Assembly (NCBI GenBank): GCA_003153375.1
Contig: PLYM01000255.1
Span: 9,793 to 47,598, forward strand
Origin: Planctomycetaceae bacterium
GTDB lineage: Bacteria > Planctomycetota > Planctomycetia > Pirellulales > PALSA-1355
Direction of reading: 5' to 3'
Length of the DNA: 37,806 bases
The first letter of the stretch is position 1, and each line of letters starts with the position of its first letter. Shown piece after piece: positions 21,031 through 29,356 of this stretch. The position numbers and the translations under genes are program-made. Under the pieces are notes generated by a model, which was given only the letters and a program-made list of their open reading frames with translations, was not told the DNA's origin and made no database searches.

Positions 21031-21867
21031 TCATGCGAGTCGACGTTGTTGCACGATCACCGCGGCGGCGATGGTCGAGAAGACGATGAGCATCTGGCCG
21101 GGACCATAGGTGAGCCAGACGCATTCGGTGTCGAGCGCGAAGTGGCCGCGAAAAAGTTCGCAGGCGAGAATCAAATCGCTGGCCAGGAAAAGCGCGGCGC
21201 CGACAGCCAACGCGAGCAGCCGCCGATCTTGCAATGCCAGGCCAGCCGTGATGCCGGCCGTGCCCGCCAGCAGCAGGGAGTAGGGCAGGGCAGGGCCTAC
21301 GAGCGGCCGCGCTTCCGTTCCCTGCACGACCACGATGTACCAGGCGACCAGGGCGACGAGTTGCCAAGCGATGATCGCCACCGCGAGCGCCGCTCGCGCG
21401 GTCAGGCCAGCGCGACGGGCCAGGACGATGCAACCAGTGATGTAGGCTACGTGCCCAAGTCCGAAGGCGACCATGCCGCCGAGCACGCCGTGAATCACGG
21501 GCACGAACTCGAGCCAGCCGGCGTTGAAGAAATCGCCGATCGCCCCGGCCATCATGCCGAGCGCGATCCAGAAGGCGAATCGGCCCAGGCCCAGTTGGCG
21601 CCACCAGGCAGCCGAGAGCCAGGCGGCAGCAACCAGCACGAGCGACGAGGCCATGCGCGCGGCGGTGGCTGGCAGCGCGCCGTGAGCGGGTGGCATGTCG
21701 GCACTGGGGAAGCCCAGAAAGCCGGCCCAACTGGGATTGCCCAGCAGCATCGCGGCGGTCAGCAGCGCGGCCCAGGTGATCCAGAGCACGACGAACGCGG
21801 CGAGCAACGTCGACGACGCACGACGGGGCGCCGACCAGCGGGCGGCTGACGGATCGAAGTCGATCAT
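21031..21867 (-). CDS. YhhN (TMEM86/lysoplasmalogenase) family membrane protein
   Basis: A 278-aa integral membrane protein with about eight hydrophobic segments. YhhN-type motifs are visible: GAIGDFFNAGW (Gly-Asp-Phe), FGLGHVAYITGC (Gly-His-x-x-Tyr) and GAALFLASDLILA (Phe-x-x-Ser-Asp). Characterised relatives hydrolyse the vinyl-ether bond of lysoplasmalogens, but many bacterial members are untested. The ATG at 21867 (MIDFDPSAARW) is preferred. ATGs at 21888 and 21915 would extend it by 7 or 16 residues. A small hairpin (CGACTC 21027-21032, GAGTCG 21037-21042) overlaps the stop and may separate it from the convergent gene. Confidence 0.75.
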   Translation of the reverse strand: MIDFDPSAARWSAPRRASSTLLAAFVVLWITWAALLTAAMLLGNPSWAGFLGFPSADMPPAHGALPATAARMASSLVLVAAAWLSAAWWRQLGLGRFAFWIALGMMAGAIGDFFNAGWLEFVPVIHGVLGGMVAFGLGHVAYITGCIVLARRAGLTARAALAVAIIAWQLVALVAWYIVVVQGTEARPLVGPALPYSLLLAGTAGITAGLALQDRRLLALAVGAALFLASDLILACELFRGHFALDTECVWLTYGPGQMLIVFSTIAAAVIVQQRRLA

Positions 21868-22200
21868 GGCTTTCTTTCCGCCTAACATTCTCTGGCTGGG
21901 CGTTGATTTCTTCACATCGTCGATCAGACCGCGATCCTACCCCGCCTGGCCGGCAGTTCAAAGTGGCCTGGTTTTCGGCGCTGACAAACGGGGGAGCGAG
22001 GTGGTAGGGTCTGTTCATCGGGCGATCGCTCCCACGGTCGTTCGCCTGTGACGCCCAAATCACTCCCGGCCCGAGCCGGGATCTGGCCCTGCCGCGCCCG
22101 GCGGCGTTTTGCCGCGACCCACCCCTTCGAGCGCGCCGTGATCGGCGCGCGACGCGCGAGCGTTGTTGCCTTTTCGCAGCCCCATTAGGAGTTTCGCTCA
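21868..22200. other. Divergent intergenic region with a GC hairpin
   Basis: About 330 bases between the YhhN-type gene and the acidic protein gene. GCGCGCC at 22131-22137 pairs with GGCGCGC at 22144-22150 about 50 bases before the rightward ATG. It may be a 5' untranslated hairpin or an operator. AGGAG at about 22187 is the ribosome site of the acidic protein. Nothing else is clear. Confidence 0.45.
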
Positions 22201-23153: not shown

Positions 23154-23909
23154 CTACCGTCTGATGTTGAATAACGGATCTCGCGACCGAATCAATTCCG
23201 TCTCGAGTGCTCTTCGAACCCGCGTCGAGGTGTCCGATGGAAGAACATGCACCTCAACGAGGATCTCGCTTGGACCGTCCCCCCAGAGCCATCGAGCAAA
23301 ACCCTTGTTGTCAGAATGGTCGAGATGCTTGCGAATTCTGTTTTGCAGATTTTCGGCTTCTCCGACATATAGCGTGCTGTGCTTCGTCAAGAAGACATAG
23401 AGTCCCTGCTTGGCAGGCAACCTGCTGAGATCGACACTTGCGACTTCCAGAATCTCAACCGTTTCGGCAGGAATTACGCGACTAACAACTTCGGGTTTGA
23501 GCTGTCGTCCCTTTCGTAGATTGAGTGCAGCCCATCGGTACTCGACGGGGCGGTAGCCCGGGGCAATCCGATCAGCCAGTCGATCAAATTCTGTGGCAAC
23601 TTCGGGGTCGCAAATGATGTCATCCAAGCTCAAGGCATCGCGTCGTTCGACGAACCGCGCCGCGATTTCGGCAGCGAATCGATATTCATCTTCTTCGAGA
23701 AATGTTGATCGTTTGGACTTTAGGCCCCGCAGGCCGCCTTGCTTTCGGAGGTTCAGCAGTGATCGATTGAGTGCCGAAGCGGGTTCAACGAGCCCCAGGC
23801 AGCGACACTCCTTTAGGAAGACTTCGTCAAGCTCTGGATCAGCGACCACTCGGTCAGGGGAGTATCCCGAACAGGCCAATTCGTAAGCTGCTCGCAGCTT
23901 CGATTTCAT
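23154..23909 (-). CDS. GIY-YIG nuclease-like protein, paralogue of the methyltransferase C-terminal half
   Basis: A 251-aa protein. Residues about 1-60 and 72-135 are two helical modules, each with a 'D-x-(V/I)-x-x-DP' centre (PDRVVADPELDE and LDDIICDPEVAT). A GIY-YIG domain follows (about 160-251). It starts with KQGLYVF, then LYVGEAENLQNRIRKHL, and ends ALETELIRSRDPLFN. The Glu at residue 236 matches the catalytic Glu of UvrC-type GIY-YIG nucleases, so cleavage activity is plausible. The upstream methyltransferase has the same architecture at its C-terminus. The ATG at 23909 overlaps that gene's stop as ATGA, so the two are translationally coupled. The longer open frame upstream lies inside the methyltransferase gene. 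It may be the endonuclease of a restriction-modification-like pair. Confidence 0.82.
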   Translation of the reverse strand: MKSKLRAAYELACSGYSPDRVVADPELDEVFLKECRCLGLVEPASALNRSLLNLRKQGGLRGLKSKRSTFLEEDEYRFAAEIAARFVERRDALSLDDIICDPEVATEFDRLADRIAPGYRPVEYRWAALNLRKGRQLKPEVVSRVIPAETVEILEVASVDLSRLPAKQGLYVFLTKHSTLYVGEAENLQNRIRKHLDHSDNKGFARWLWGDGPSEILVEVHVLPSDTSTRVRRALETELIRSRDPLFNIRR

Positions 23910-25612
23910 GCGTTTGACTGGTCGGGAAGATTCAAAAGCGGCTGATGTTTCATGATCATTCGATATTGGTACGCGAGCCGGTCTGCATAGTCGCAGGTAG
24001 TGCGAAAGTAATGGGCAGTTAATGACTTCCACTTCTTCCACTGCGGACGCGTCTCGATTCCAAACTGCAAGTGAAGTCTCTGACGTAAATTGCTCGATTC
24101 CCCCGCATACAACGCCTCCCGGTTGGAACGGGCGACAACAACATAAACCCCAGACTCCTCAGGAAGTTTATTTGAACTAGTCAGGTCGAGGGGTACCTCT
24201 TTGTTGAATTGAACATCCATCAGCAACTTCGCTCGAGATCGCCCCAGTTTGGCACTTTTGCGTAGCCGCATTGCGGCCCAGCGGTACTGCAACGAAGTAA
24301 ATCCGGGCGCCCATTTTCGAGCGATTTCGTCGAACTCTGCAGCCAAGAAGGGGTCGCAGAGGATGCTATCCAAGCTTTCGTGCCCGGCCTTGATCATGTC
24401 TCGCCATGCAATTTCACTTGCGAATAGAAAATTCTCGCAGTCTTCTCGGCGGATTTCCGTGCGCCGCCGCGCGGGGAACTCAACCAGCAGGCCGGCCTTG
24501 CGCATGCCGAACAACGTCCGGTTCCAGGAGCGCGGCTCGCCCGGCAAGCCAAGCTGGCGGCAGCGGTCGGCGAGTTGACCGTTCAACTCGGGGTCGATGA
24601 TCACGCGATCGAGTGAGTAACCGTCGTGCGTGGCCCGAAACGCGTCGAGCAGGCCGTCGTGCAGCACCTTTGCCTGAGTCCGCAGCGCCGCGTCGGCTAC
24701 CGGCGGGTCGATGCGCTTGGTCGTTTGCAGACGCTTGCCTTTGACGCCCGGCGCGGCGGTGGCTGGAGCGCTAATAGTGGGCTCGGCGGCGCCTTCCAAG
24801 GGATCGCCGACGCAGACGCGATTCAGCCGGGCCGTGCCGCGCTCGACGTAATCTTCCGAGAGATCGAAGGCCAGGTAGCGGCGGCCGAGCTTCTTGGCGA
24901 CGGCCACGGTGGTGGCGCTGCCGCTGAAGGGATCGAACACCACCTCGTTCGGAGCCGAGCAGAGGCGGATGATGCGGCCCAGCAATTGCTCGGGCATCTG
25001 GCAGCCGTGGAAGCCGGCCCGCTCCTTGAACGTGCCCGCCACGCGGGGAAAGTACCAGGTGTCTTCGTCGGGCGTGAAGCAGTCGGCCAGGTCCTGCGGA
25101 CGGAGCACCCAGGTGTCGTCGGGCAGCCGGCCGTTGGGGTTCGCCCGCAGGTCGGCATAGACGAGTTGCCGGGCCGAGGGGATGCGATTTTCCAATTCGT
25201 CGCCGCGAAAGGTGAACCGCTTGGGGTCCTTGACGAAATAGAACAGGTGGGCGTGCGAGCGGCTGAACTTTTGCTTGCAGTTGACGCCGAACGTGTAGTA
25301 CCAGATCACCCAACTGCGCGGGTGGAAGCCGACCGCCTGGCTGGCCAGCTTCAACTCGGCGGCATATTCGTCGCCAATCGCCAGCCAAAACGATCCGTCG
25401 TCAGCCAGCACGCGATGCACCGCCGCGATCCAACGGCTCGACCAGTCGAGATACGCATCGCGCGTTTGCTTGTCGTTATAGACGTCGTACTCGTAGCCAA
25501 TGTTGAACGGCGGATCGGCAAAGGCTAGGTTGACCGAGCCGGCCGGCAGGGCGTTCATTCCCTCGATGCAATCGCAACGGCGAATCGTGTTGAAGCGTTG
25601 AAGCACATCCAT
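23906..25612 (-). CDS. DNA methyltransferase fused to helical modules and a GIY-YIG domain
   Basis: A 568-aa protein. Residues 1-260 are an N6-adenine or N4-cytosine methyltransferase. Motif IV, ADPPFN (32-37), precedes the SAM motif FDPFSGSATT (near 226-235), which is the beta-class order. The segment between (about 90-200) should recognise DNA. Two helical modules follow (about 312-380 and 395-465; GYSLDRVIIDPELN and SLDSILCDPFLA). A GIY-YIG-like domain ends the protein (about 484-568; ESGVYVVVARS, ALYAGESSNLRQRL). At residue 549 it has Gln where UvrC-type enzymes have catalytic Glu, so it may be inactive or only bind DNA. The methyltransferase part has host-like high GC, while the rest is visibly less GC-rich. 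The ATG at 25612 has AAGGA 9 bases upstream. Confidence 0.9.
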   Translation of the reverse strand: MDVLQRFNTIRRCDCIEGMNALPAGSVNLAFADPPFNIGYEYDVYNDKQTRDAYLDWSSRWIAAVHRVLADDGSFWLAIGDEYAAELKLASQAVGFHPRSWVIWYYTFGVNCKQKFSRSHAHLFYFVKDPKRFTFRGDELENRIPSARQLVYADLRANPNGRLPDDTWVLRPQDLADCFTPDEDTWYFPRVAGTFKERAGFHGCQMPEQLLGRIIRLCSAPNEVVFDPFSGSATTVAVAKKLGRRYLAFDLSEDYVERGTARLNRVCVGDPLEGAAEPTISAPATAAPGVKGKRLQTTKRIDPPVADAALRTQAKVLHDGLLDAFRATHDGYSLDRVIIDPELNGQLADRCRQLGLPGEPRSWNRTLFGMRKAGLLVEFPARRRTEIRREDCENFLFASEIAWRDMIKAGHESLDSILCDPFLAAEFDEIARKWAPGFTSLQYRWAAMRLRKSAKLGRSRAKLLMDVQFNKEVPLDLTSSNKLPEESGVYVVVARSNREALYAGESSNLRQRLHLQFGIETRPQWKKWKSLTAHYFRTTCDYADRLAYQYRMIMKHQPLLNLPDQSNA

Positions 25613-25827: not shown

Positions 25828-28650
25828 TTAGTTCGCAAGCAAGCTGCCGAATTCCAAATACCCGCGTCGTCCGAGCCGATCAATCAGCTTCTTCGCGGCA
25901 TCTCGTGGCGGACCGGACGTCTTGAGCGCCGATTCGAGGATTTCTCTCGCAGAATCACGCCAAAGATATATCCGCCATCCATCTTTGTCCCCGTCGACGA
26001 TTTTCTGCAAAATGGCGACCGATCTTGCTATATCTGTCTCACAGATCTTCGCAAGACGCGGCACAACTTCGTTTTCGGGGGATGGCATGGGAACGACGGA
26101 AACGAATTCTTCGAGCCGTTCGATAGACCAGTCCTTCGGAAGGGCTCCGGAACTGAACCACTGCCCGAATAGGTAGGCGTGCGGCTTCGCCGCAGCGTCG
26201 CTTGGACCGGAGGATTTCCAGTAGGACTCCCAAAGTAGCATTAGCCGTTGAATGAGAGGGGCCGGTAGGTCCGATTCCCGCTCGATACTGATGCCAACAA
26301 AGGCGATCGCATGGCGACGAATATCTGGATTGGTCACAGCTATAAAACGCGAAAAGAGTCCGTGCCCGTCGAGATTTAATTCCCCCCGACCGTACAAAAC
26401 TACGAGGTGTTCCCCAAGGCGAAACATTGGTTGAGAATAATCAGTATCTTGGATCGTCACGCGCGAAGACTGCTCAACTGCATACTCGAACTGCGATTTG
26501 AAAAGGCGATACAGCTCAATGCGAGGGTTAACCCAGACAAGAAACGAATTCCACGCAGCCCAGCCACAAGCCGTGCTTGGCGAACGGTCGTACTCACGAA
26601 GATCGAATAACCTTTCAGCATTTGACGACAACCAATTGACGTCCAACCATTCAATGAGACCTATTCTTGCGCCAATCACCGACAGCGCCTCAAAAGTGCG
26701 ATTTTCGGGAGCAATTTGACGATCAAGAAACTCGCGAACCTCCGGCATGCCGTCAAATCCTGCGGCCAACGACTTAGCATTTGCGTCGCCTATCTGTCGC
26801 CCCAACCAACGGGCGTAGTCAAGCGCAGCGTCGACTGCTCGCCCGCGAGGCGAATTTATCCCGAAAATTAAGTAATCTTGAAGCTGCGGATCGTCTTCTG
26901 TGGATCTAATAACATTTGACGTCGCGCTATCGTGTAGCGCACTTGTTACCAGCTCCCAAAGTGTGGTCCGATATGTCGCTACGTCGTACCGAGGCTGCTC
27001 GTCGGAATCGGCCTTGCAAACTGCACCCACGAACCCGATTACTTCATTTCGGACTTCTTGCCAGGGTTGACCGTCGATCTGACCCTGAGACTCGTCAGAT
27101 TCACGTCGTTTTGCCGGCCCTTCGTAAATCAACCATTTGCACAATGCCAAGACTGAACCGACGTCAATCAATTCGCCAGCAGTTACAGCAATTGCCATCT
27201 TTCCAATAAATGCGGACACGCAAGCCGCCACCGATCCCTTTAGAATTGCCGCCTCGGCCGAACATTCGACCGCTCGGACGCGGACATAGTCGCCGAAGAC
27301 GGCGGCAACCGCTGTGATATCGTCGCGGTCGCCCGCACCGATGAATGCATCAACTACCCTAACTACTTCGGCAAATGGAAGGCTCTCCAGCTCCTCGCGG
27401 TGTATTGGGCTTTCGTGTCCCCAGCTTGAAGTAATACGCGCGCACAAATCCGCAAGCGGTGGCTCACCATGTTTGGCGCGCATCCCCAAATAGAATTGTC
27501 TTTCGTTGGTTGGAAGGTGATCTCGAATCCAGTGGAATCGCTCAAATTTCCACCATTCGGCACGATCGATATCGTTTTTGTCATATTCGCCTGCAACGCC
27601 CTTTGTCGCCGTCGGACCTGCATCGACCCATTCCAGCCACGTCTGCTGATCGCTGGAATCAAGGATGTCCCATTGTTGTCCGACCATCCGCGCATATTCA
27701 TGCTTAAGCTCCGATTGATCCAACAGGGATCGGTTCATTATTGCTTTCCGTGCGATGTCTGGATCGGTCTGCGCAAATTCGTCGATCAGATGCAACGACA
27801 GCCGTTTGAAAAGAGAGAACTTTTGCTCGTCCAGTATCTGTAGTATTTCCGCCAAGGTTGCGAAGCCACTTCCGATCCCCTGTTCCAGACACCTCGTTGC
27901 GACGCCAACCAAGCGACTCGCAAACTCAAAATCATGGTTCTCCTCATGTTCTTCAATTGTAGGTCGCCAGACAAAGGAGTAGTCGCGTCCAGTCGCTGAG
28001 TCGGTGTATTCTCTTCTCTCTATCGAAGTGTTAAGTGAAGAGACCAACAATCTGCAGAATCTCTTCGCGTCGAGAGCAAGAAGTGCCGAGGCAACTGTCT
28101 GAAGCCCCTCCAAATACTCATAACCAGCGGCGCTCGCGCGATCATTCCCGCTCGGCATTCGATGCGATGAGAAAAGAGTGCCTGCAAGTTGGAACGCCGT
28201 CTCGTTCTCCATGCCAGTGGCGAGATGAACACAAAGCTTCGTTGCGTTGCCAACTCCGTACCAAAGCGAGTCGCGATCGACAGCTTGGCAAATCTGCGGA
28301 ACGAGTTTTTTGGCGAGCGTCGGAGCCATTTCGATCGCCGCGACAAGCATGTCGTCTATGACGGACGCGTTCTCCGTCTTAATCTTCAAAAGCACCGCCA
28401 AGACTTCTTCGGGCGCGAGCTTTGCCATCCTCGCCAGGTAGGAGGATGCAGCCCACTTTGGATGACGAGTTCCGCCGCCCTCTACGGTCTCAACCGAGGG
28501 TGCTGTGGCGAACAGCGAGCGCGCAGCCAAAGGCCCGATCCAATAAGGATTTTCCAAACGATCAAAGAAGTAGGCCTCGCGTTGACGTGTGCTGAATAAC
28601 GGAACAGCTTCGTCAACTTGCTCTGGCGTTGGCGCTTTGAAGGATTGCAT
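25828..28650 (-). CDS. Large helical-repeat protein of unknown function
   Basis: A 940-aa soluble protein with no Walker A motif, signal peptide or clear membrane segment. Most of it appears to be stacked helices in an armadillo/HEAT-like style. The N-terminus has REAYFFDRLENPYWIGPLAA, then short helical units (AKLAPEEVLAVLLKI, LVAAIEMAPTLAKKLVP). The C-terminus ends AAKKLIDRLGRRGYLEFGSL. These elements remind me of helical sensor regions attached to large STAND-type defence proteins, but that is an impression, not an identification. Its start overlaps the end of the upstream 247-aa gene by 38 bases, so both are co-expressed. The DNA is clearly less GC-rich than the gyrB side, which suggests acquisition by transfer. 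No catalytic motif was found. Confidence 0.8.
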   Translation of the reverse strand: MQSFKAPTPEQVDEAVPLFSTRQREAYFFDRLENPYWIGPLAARSLFATAPSVETVEGGGTRHPKWAASSYLARMAKLAPEEVLAVLLKIKTENASVIDDMLVAAIEMAPTLAKKLVPQICQAVDRDSLWYGVGNATKLCVHLATGMENETAFQLAGTLFSSHRMPSGNDRASAAGYEYLEGLQTVASALLALDAKRFCRLLVSSLNTSIERREYTDSATGRDYSFVWRPTIEEHEENHDFEFASRLVGVATRCLEQGIGSGFATLAEILQILDEQKFSLFKRLSLHLIDEFAQTDPDIARKAIMNRSLLDQSELKHEYARMVGQQWDILDSSDQQTWLEWVDAGPTATKGVAGEYDKNDIDRAEWWKFERFHWIRDHLPTNERQFYLGMRAKHGEPPLADLCARITSSWGHESPIHREELESLPFAEVVRVVDAFIGAGDRDDITAVAAVFGDYVRVRAVECSAEAAILKGSVAACVSAFIGKMAIAVTAGELIDVGSVLALCKWLIYEGPAKRRESDESQGQIDGQPWQEVRNEVIGFVGAVCKADSDEQPRYDVATYRTTLWELVTSALHDSATSNVIRSTEDDPQLQDYLIFGINSPRGRAVDAALDYARWLGRQIGDANAKSLAAGFDGMPEVREFLDRQIAPENRTFEALSVIGARIGLIEWLDVNWLSSNAERLFDLREYDRSPSTACGWAAWNSFLVWVNPRIELYRLFKSQFEYAVEQSSRVTIQDTDYSQPMFRLGEHLVVLYGRGELNLDGHGLFSRFIAVTNPDIRRHAIAFVGISIERESDLPAPLIQRLMLLWESYWKSSGPSDAAAKPHAYLFGQWFSSGALPKDWSIERLEEFVSVVPMPSPENEVVPRLAKICETDIARSVAILQKIVDGDKDGWRIYLWRDSAREILESALKTSGPPRDAAKKLIDRLGRRGYLEFGSLLAN

Positions 28651-29356
28651 CTAGCTCCTTGGTTCCTGTGAAGAAACTCCCCACAAAGCTGTGCAGAATG
28701 TTCTCGAAAGCCTCAAATTGTCGCCGCAGCTCAGCCTCGTCCACCGCCGGCACGCCGTCGGTGCGAAGATGCGCTCTGTCCATAAACCATTCGCGAACAT
28801 CTTGAAATGCTTTCACAATGCGCTCGTTCACGTCCGCACCTGGTGCCTCGGCACGTGCGAGAATCTCAAATAGAATTTTGTGAGCGCTCGGCCGTGACCG
28901 GCGCAGACGGTGTTCCCCTACCAGAACATCGATACGCCTTGCAACCTTGACAGGAATTGGGTACGTCTCGACTACGGGTGGACCTCCTGATTGGCAGAAG
29001 CCGTCGCCCATCGGCCAGTCGCGTGCAATTTTGTCCAAATGGCTTTCGTAATGAACACGTGAAGGTGCTTGCTGCGGATCGAGAATAAAAACGAGTCGAT
29101 CCGAGATGTCGCGAACCGCGTGCGCTATGAAGTGAAGGCGTCCCGGAAATGCGACGTCTTCAAGCAACTTCACCGCTCCGCGGTATGCATCAGCAACCGA
29201 CGGTGCCTGTTGACGAAACCAGTGCAAAAGCTCGATGCGCGACTGCGGCCAACTCGACTCGCTCCTAGCGTGAGCCATTAATTCGGAGTCGCTGCCGTCG
29301 ACATTAGTCGGATTGACTCCTTCATGGTGGCTCATGGTGTTGCCAAACTGGAGCAT
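28613..29356 (-). CDS. Unknown protein paired with the 940-aa protein
   Basis: A 247-aa soluble protein that I cannot assign. Helical stretches include PQSRIELLHWFRQQ, VADAYRGAVKLLEDV, the distinctive FPGRLHFIAHAVRDISDRL (70-88), then basic HRLRRSRPSAHKILFEIL (149-166). The C-terminal EAFENILHSFVGSFFTGTKE includes a possible amphipathic segment. The gene begins 11 bases after the gyrB stop on the same strand and ends 38 bases inside the 940-aa gene. The ATG at 29356 has GAGAG upstream. An ATG at 29335 is possible but has no ribosome site. The layout suggests a two-gene module, perhaps defence-related, transcribed with or just after gyrB. Confidence 0.78.
   Translation of the reverse strand: MLQFGNTMSHHEGVNPTNVDGSDSELMAHARSESSWPQSRIELLHWFRQQAPSVADAYRGAVKLLEDVAFPGRLHFIAHAVRDISDRLVFILDPQQAPSRVHYESHLDKIARDWPMGDGFCQSGGPPVVETYPIPVKVARRIDVLVGEHRLRRSRPSAHKILFEILARAEAPGADVNERIVKAFQDVREWFMDRAHLRTDGVPAVDEAELRRQFEAFENILHSFVGSFFTGTKELDAILQSANARAS

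Follow-up and report, generated by a model that had tools for sequence, protein, structure and literature searches.

A GIY-YIG domain lacking the catalytic glutamate in a family of planctomycete DNA methyltransferase fusions

We describe a family of planctomycete N6/N4 DNA methyltransferases that end in a GIY-YIG domain from which the metal-binding Glu is missing. The loss is common to the whole family, and the fused domain very probably does not cut DNA. The explanation we prefer, to which we give about an even chance, is that this pseudo-nuclease survives as a non-cutting component of the module with which the methyltransferase handles its target, and that a small protein encoded next to some of the fusions is the nuclease, which is often lost.

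The two genes and their relatives

The window (the whole stretch of 37,806 nt that was analysed, from contig PLYM01000255.1 of a Planctomycetaceae bacterium) encodes both proteins (Table 1). In the fusion protein, the Pfam N6_N4_Mtase match spans residues 27-257, and we take the methyltransferase to be of the beta class from its domain order (motif IV before motif I). Its motifs recur among the 126 full-length unique fusions: DPP[FY]N is found in 125 and DPFxGS[AGC] in 113. The middle repeats of the fusion matched no Pfam family. Searched as a single sequence, the fused GIY-YIG end falls below the Pfam threshold and is seen by the NCBIfam UvrC models (6e-4); with its GVY...YAG motifs, an alpha/beta core in the model, and UvrC HMM and fold matches, the domain has the GIY-YIG fold.

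Table 1. Features of the locus (positions in the window)
Feature	Position	Strand	Basis
Fusion gene, 568 aa: methyltransferase, two helical repeats and GIY-YIG pseudo-nuclease	23906-25612	-	ORF, Pfam N6_N4_Mtase 1.8e-48
N6/N4 DNA methyltransferase domain, fusion residues 5-278, motifs DPPFN and FDPFSGS intact	24779-25600	-	
Middle region, fusion residues 316-465, two helical repeats	24218-24667	-	HMM built here
GIY-YIG pseudo-nuclease domain of the fusion, residues 479-567	23912-24178	-	UvrC profile and fold matches
Gln549 codon CAA, replacing the metal-binding Glu	23966-23968	-	
Gln516 codon CAG, replacing the catalytic His (small-protein counterpart His195)	24065-24067	-	
Small gene, 251 aa: same two repeats and GIY-YIG	23154-23909	-	ORF, Pfam GIY-YIG (PF01541) 9e-8
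Glu236 codon GAG, small protein	23202-23204	-	
940-aa protein weakly like the C-terminal part of defence protein Dsr1	25828-28650	-	PADLOC 7e-14, NCBIfam 1.8e-5
247-aa partner frame of the 940-aa protein	28613-29356	-	
gyrB, dciA, dnaN, dnaA	29368-35026	-	

The start of the small gene overlaps the stop of the fusion gene as ATGA, an overlap that is seen in other pairs as well. The PF01541 match of the small protein is above the cut-off, and PADLOC and NCBIfam offered no better name for it. A methyltransferase gene thus adjoins a nuclease gene in the window, which is the gene arrangement of a type II restriction-modification pair; with the small nuclease gene nearby the window fusion is not a solitary methyltransferase, as most of its relatives are. 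The locus adjoins gyrB, dciA, dnaN and dnaA, i.e. it lies near a likely replication origin, and a gyrB-like gene is also found near the fusion at three other loci (L077, L099 and L113). No sirtuin domain was recognised in the 940-aa Dsr1-like protein, and its partner frame matches no known family.

Relatives were collected in two locus sets. The fused C-terminal part matched 18 of the 392 genomes of the phylum that were searched with it, and the small protein matched 108 of 397 genomes of the class. A search with the combined alignment matched 319 of the 392 genomes, but most of these matches were confined to the GIY-YIG part (probably UvrC, by open-frame length); as we read its output, 13 genomes matched over the whole module. 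In the first locus set 120 frames carry the middle module, 80 of them with a methyltransferase, 36 stand-alone and four on other large proteins. From a scan of 84,980 species genomes by one peptide pattern we took the best 80 of 111 relatives; 79 of these 80 are labelled as planctomycetes and one only as 'bacterium'. Merging both sets (some contigs are common to both) and removing identical modules gave 136 fusion modules, including two counted as fusions cut by contig ends (L116 and L124), and 53 stand-alone modules; these counts do not represent independent events, because the rows are related. The family is nearly confined to Planctomycetota. The module had no match in phages and none in plasmids, and the genes that recur around solo fusions appear, judging from sequence alone, to be mostly of an ordinary chromosomal kind; an origin from a phage or other mobile element was rejected on these grounds.

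Residues lost and kept in the fused domain

The preliminary description placed Gln549 of the fusion and Glu236 of the small protein 12 residues before a conserved Asn, and the codons confirm that each is exactly 12 before it (Asn561 and Asn248, respectively). It also put Gln549 at the position of the catalytic Glu of UvrC, where the column (consensus q) falls as well when the fused family is aligned by HMM with the solved UvrC domains. The AlphaFold2 models are confident (pLDDT 95.3 for the fusion module and 93.2 for the small protein): Gln549, residue 242 of the module, lies in its C-terminal helix (235-249), and Glu236 lies in helix 229-243 of the small protein. Both domains matched UvrC 1yd6 in VIA-align, the fused GIY-YIG with a Z of 7.6 (rmsd 3.0, 87 aligned) and that of the small protein with a Z of 9.6 (rmsd 2.4, 86 aligned).

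The loss of Glu extends to every orthologue in the collection, and no orthologue with Glu, which would have counted against the preliminary description, was found: none of the 136 unique fusion modules (and none of the 80 fusions of the first locus set) carries Glu or Asp in this column. Since the loss is common to all 136, it is not a chance substitution, and a sequencing error or a mutation of a single genome is ruled out. The Gln itself is present in 88 of the 136, and the remainder have other residues, namely Arg (19), Lys (18), Trp (four), Ala (three), and Cys, Met, Phe and Val (one each), so that Gln, Arg and Lys together account for 125. The same column in the 53 stand-alone modules holds Glu in 44, Leu in four, and Phe and Val in one each, and is gapped in three; the gapped rows are incomplete or broken genes, and the Phe row is the gene remnant at locus L177, not a real nuclease.

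The catalytic His is also gone from the window fusion (Gln516), a point absent from the preliminary description, and it is kept in only 23 of the 136 fusions vs 45 of the 53 stand-alone modules. The small protein, by comparison, has the full residue set of a GIY-YIG nuclease (Tyr171, Tyr181, Arg191, His195, Glu236 and Asn248), which is invariant in 20 aligned sequences; the fused domain has Arg512, with the metal-binding Glu replaced by Gln549. In R.Eco29kI, whose active set is Y49, Y76, R104, H108, E142 and N154, the change E142A leaves 0% cleavage with a Kd of 45 vs 16 nM (PMC1952068). This result, the absence of Glu from all fusions, the rarity of the His and the lack of any fusion-specific acid strongly support the earlier suggestion that the fused domain is non-cutting.

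Other residues of the site persist. Among the 136 fusions the Tyr490 column holds Tyr in 124 and Phe in 12, the Tyr502 column Tyr in 116 and Phe in 19, and Gly504, Arg512 and Asn561 are kept in 133, 109 (27 are without it) and 132, respectively. The dN/dS of the fused GIY-YIG part is 0.02-0.35 in 11 of 15 close fusion pairs (synonymous sites are saturated in the other four), and that of the linker is 0.13-0.40 where computable; all 15 pairs are solo fusions. With both Tyr, Gly, Arg and Asn retained and a low dN/dS, the domain is a conserved pseudo-nuclease and not a decaying one.

In a tree built by a quick search (SH-aLRT support only, with S_L176 and S_L087 left out), a branch with a support of 95 has the fusions together on one side. 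Presence or absence of Glu requires three changes over 118 rows, and any correlation test on the loss is powerless, because independent losses are so few (one to two independent pairs). The small proteins of the seven pairs group together (support 86), and the fusions that partner small proteins are scattered among the solo fusions (eight changes for eight rows). The sister group of the small nuclease consists of fifteen solo stand-alone relatives (L033, L082-L085, L088, L096, L100, L103, L108, L112, L120, L122, L174 and L175) with the full Tyr-Tyr-Arg-His-Glu-Asn set and hydrophobic, signal-peptide-like N-termini, which on this basis are possibly exported GIY-YIG nucleases.

Role of the fused domain

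According to the explanation we prefer, Glu would on the tree have been lost a single time, no later than in the common ancestor of the methyltransferase fusions. The disarmed domain and the two winged-helix-like repeats would make up a C-terminal target-handling module that places the methyltransferase on its DNA, the metal ligand being replaced by Gln, Arg or Lys. The small protein, which has the same module with an intact site, would most likely serve as the nuclease in a type II-like restriction pair and cut unmethylated DNA at a target common to both enzymes; lineages would often lose it and retain a solitary methyltransferase with the disarmed module.

That the fused domain holds DNA for the methyltransferase is, in our judgement, evenly balanced. 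The fusion's change from Glu to Gln copies one that stops cleavage and, because the His is gone as well, it goes no further than to suggest that binding survives. Unaltered binding is spoken against by the loss of the His in 113 of the 136 fusions, since H108F was the change that hurt DNA binding by Eco29kI most (Kd 114 nM, PMC1952068). For the repeats, a weak VIA-align match to an Lrp-type regulator was obtained (Z 5.2, model residues 7-77); such winged-helix resemblance in the models (Z about 5) gives no more than a hint. The VIA-align matches listed include no strong fold match for the two repeats, an absence that proves nothing.

The module is also found on proteins other than these methyltransferases. 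For example, it ends a type I specificity subunit, HsdS, at L145:4811-7297 (Methylase_S 2e-31), which adjoins a type I restriction subunit, and it ends Eco57I/DrmMI-like methylases at three loci (L168-L170), two of them (L169 and L170) beside a DpdE/DrmD-like helicase. Glu is absent from all four sequences, of which L168-L170 are close relatives. We tentatively put forward a broader reading, which we consider possible though doubtful: in Planctomycetota the Glu-less module would be a portable DNA-holding part on modification machines as unrelated as N6/N4 methyltransferases, DISARM/type IIG-like methylases and a type I specificity subunit. Cutter and modifier of one system would then recognise DNA through modules of common descent, and loss of the cutter would do the modifier no harm. 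Since the HsdS carrier already possesses two recognition domains, specificity cannot be what the module is needed for in that protein. Stand-alone modules occur within 4 kb of a D12-class methyltransferase at seven loci, with Glu replaced by Leu at four (L093, L095, L109 and L118, which are the Glu-less stand-alone forms of the tree set) and kept at three (L086, L138 and L159); the D12 neighbours of L086, L095 and L138 were assigned by Pfam and the other four by sequence clustering.

The strongest alternative, which we nevertheless think rather unlikely, is that the dead domain is a structural or protein-contact part (e.g. a dimerisation surface of the methyltransferase) that does not touch DNA. 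Its presence on unrelated modification enzymes, including an HsdS with recognition domains of its own, would agree with such a role, as would the loss of the His and of part of the Arg; but Tyr, Tyr, Arg and Asn of the cleft are kept in 80-97% of fusions, beyond what a scaffold needs, and Glu is replaced mostly by Gln, Arg or Lys.

The preliminary description proposed instead that the fused domain may bind to, or form a dimer with, the active small nuclease, and that this could hold back cutting at the sites that the methyltransferase occupies. Homologous domains often dimerise, and the two genes are adjacent with the ATGA overlap here and in other pairs. The proteins also co-diverge: distances of the small proteins correlate with those of the fused modules (Mantel r 0.75, p 1e-4, 21 pairs, leaving out L177, L087 and L203) and more weakly with those of the methyltransferases (r 0.39, 18 loci, leaving out three more), and once the methyltransferase is controlled for, the partial rank correlation of the small protein with the fused module is 0.63 (p 0.001, 18 loci). 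This co-divergence fits long co-inheritance and is no proof of contact, as shared ancestry explains it equally well. Gene conversion between the neighbours was ruled out, because the identity between fusion and small protein is no higher within loci than between them (0.385 vs 0.395 for repeat 1, 0.401 vs 0.408 for repeat 2, and 0.233 vs 0.232 for GIY-YIG).

Against docking as the reason for the change stands the absence of Glu where there is no nuclease to dock with. The small gene adjoins only 24 of the 136 unique fusions (22 of the 128 with at least 900 nt downstream), and three of these 24 pairs are incomplete or remnant (L087, L203 and L177, the last being the remnant); no small gene is adjacent to the other 112. 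A search of 12 fusion-bearing genomes with the small protein found no second copy in 10, which have the fusion alone, and the small-protein profile found no remnant beside 72 of the 80 fusions of the first set (76 of the 80 have at least 1 kb downstream). Purifying selection on the domain persists in the solo fusions. Locus L177 (1-1670) carries the nearest relative of the window fusion, 65% identical over the last 263 residues and with its end intact; about 34 residues of the small gene remain there (56% identical) and then run into the next gene, a homologue of the one at 21031-21915 of the window. The nuclease has been deleted at this locus and the fusion kept, a frozen step from a pair to a solitary methyltransferase. 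We thus consider the proposal of the preliminary description unlikely, although fusion and nuclease may touch each other in loci that retain both genes.

It is very improbable that the fused domain still cuts, either with a different acid or without a metal. In favour of it are the retained Tyr, Arg and Asn, the Glu505 column (after YxG), which is acidic in 73% of fusions, and the acids that occupy columns 485 and 544 in half of them. However, no fusion-specific acid exceeds 50%, the E142A mutant of Eco29kI is inactive (PMC1952068), and Glu505 is no substitute, because its column is equally acidic (77%) in the stand-alone forms that are active. Least credible of all is that a former nuclease domain is decaying neutrally: two catalytic residues are gone and four of the 80 fusions have no GIY-YIG HMM match, but the low dN/dS and the near-constant Gly504 and Asn561 speak against it.

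Novelty and comparison with known systems

Methyltransferase-GIY-YIG fusions (Slx1-like, in Lactobacillales; PMC1564403) and GIY-YIG nucleases beside methyltransferases are already known; our searches of open-licence papers found no description of a family-wide Glu-less GIY-YIG on methyltransferases. Here evolution has fixed, throughout a large family, a change from Glu to Gln that inactivates a GIY-YIG restriction enzyme in the laboratory, and selection has preserved it. Should the module indeed hold DNA, the family would illustrate how a modification enzyme comes to use a former nuclease for recognition, and would account for a methyltransferase and its nuclease being able to go on sharing one target although the nuclease can be lost. 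It also provides a natural cut-dead GIY-YIG for structural work, and gives an explanation, which experiments can test, for many planctomycete methyltransferases that appear solitary.

By sequence and by fold, the closest solved relatives are the GIY-YIG domains of UvrC (PDB 1ycz and 1yd0-1yd6; 1.5e-8 with the fusion profile and 2.7e-5 with the small-protein profile). Unlike UvrC, the fusion is without the catalytic Glu and is joined to a methyltransferase, and the rest of UvrC is unmatched; it does not belong to UvrC/Cho, as the NCBIfam UvrC/Cho matches cover the GIY-YIG part alone and are far below the cut-off.

The Lactobacillales fusion of a Slx1-like GIY-YIG and a COG4123 N-methyltransferase has the same order, with the methyltransferase N-terminal and the GIY-YIG C-terminal, and the two occur as separate neighbouring genes too (PMC1564403). 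The methyltransferase family and the GIY-YIG branch are different here, and a loss of Glu is not mentioned in the available part of that paper (PMC1564403). A GIY-YIG gene near a methyltransferase gene is also known from yeeC, near dnmA (PMC9973331).

The small protein is like the type II GIY-YIG enzymes R.Eco29kI and R.Hpy188I in the 12-residue spacing of Glu and Asn and in having a methyltransferase next door, and it matches Eco29kI in the Tyr-Tyr-Arg-His-Glu-Asn set (PMC1952068). The natural Gln of the fusion equals the laboratory change E142Q of R.Eco29kI, an 'inactive variant' according to the title of 3mx4; the fold matches to this structure, which come among the next after UvrC, have a Z of 5.8 for the fusion and 7.4 for the small protein, with no sequence match at E<=1. 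In contrast to Eco29kI and Hpy188I, nuclease and methyltransferase here have a two-repeat N-terminal module in common, and the methyltransferase bears a disarmed copy.

Over the methyltransferase domain the fusion matches the NCBIfam models of YhdJ-type enzymes (5e-42) and CcrM (3e-30), both far below the cut-off. YhdJ and CcrM are solitary (orphan) methyltransferases of the beta class. The fusions are like them in being mostly without a nuclease gene, but they add a C-terminal module of roughly 260 residues, including the pseudo-nuclease, that lies outside those models.
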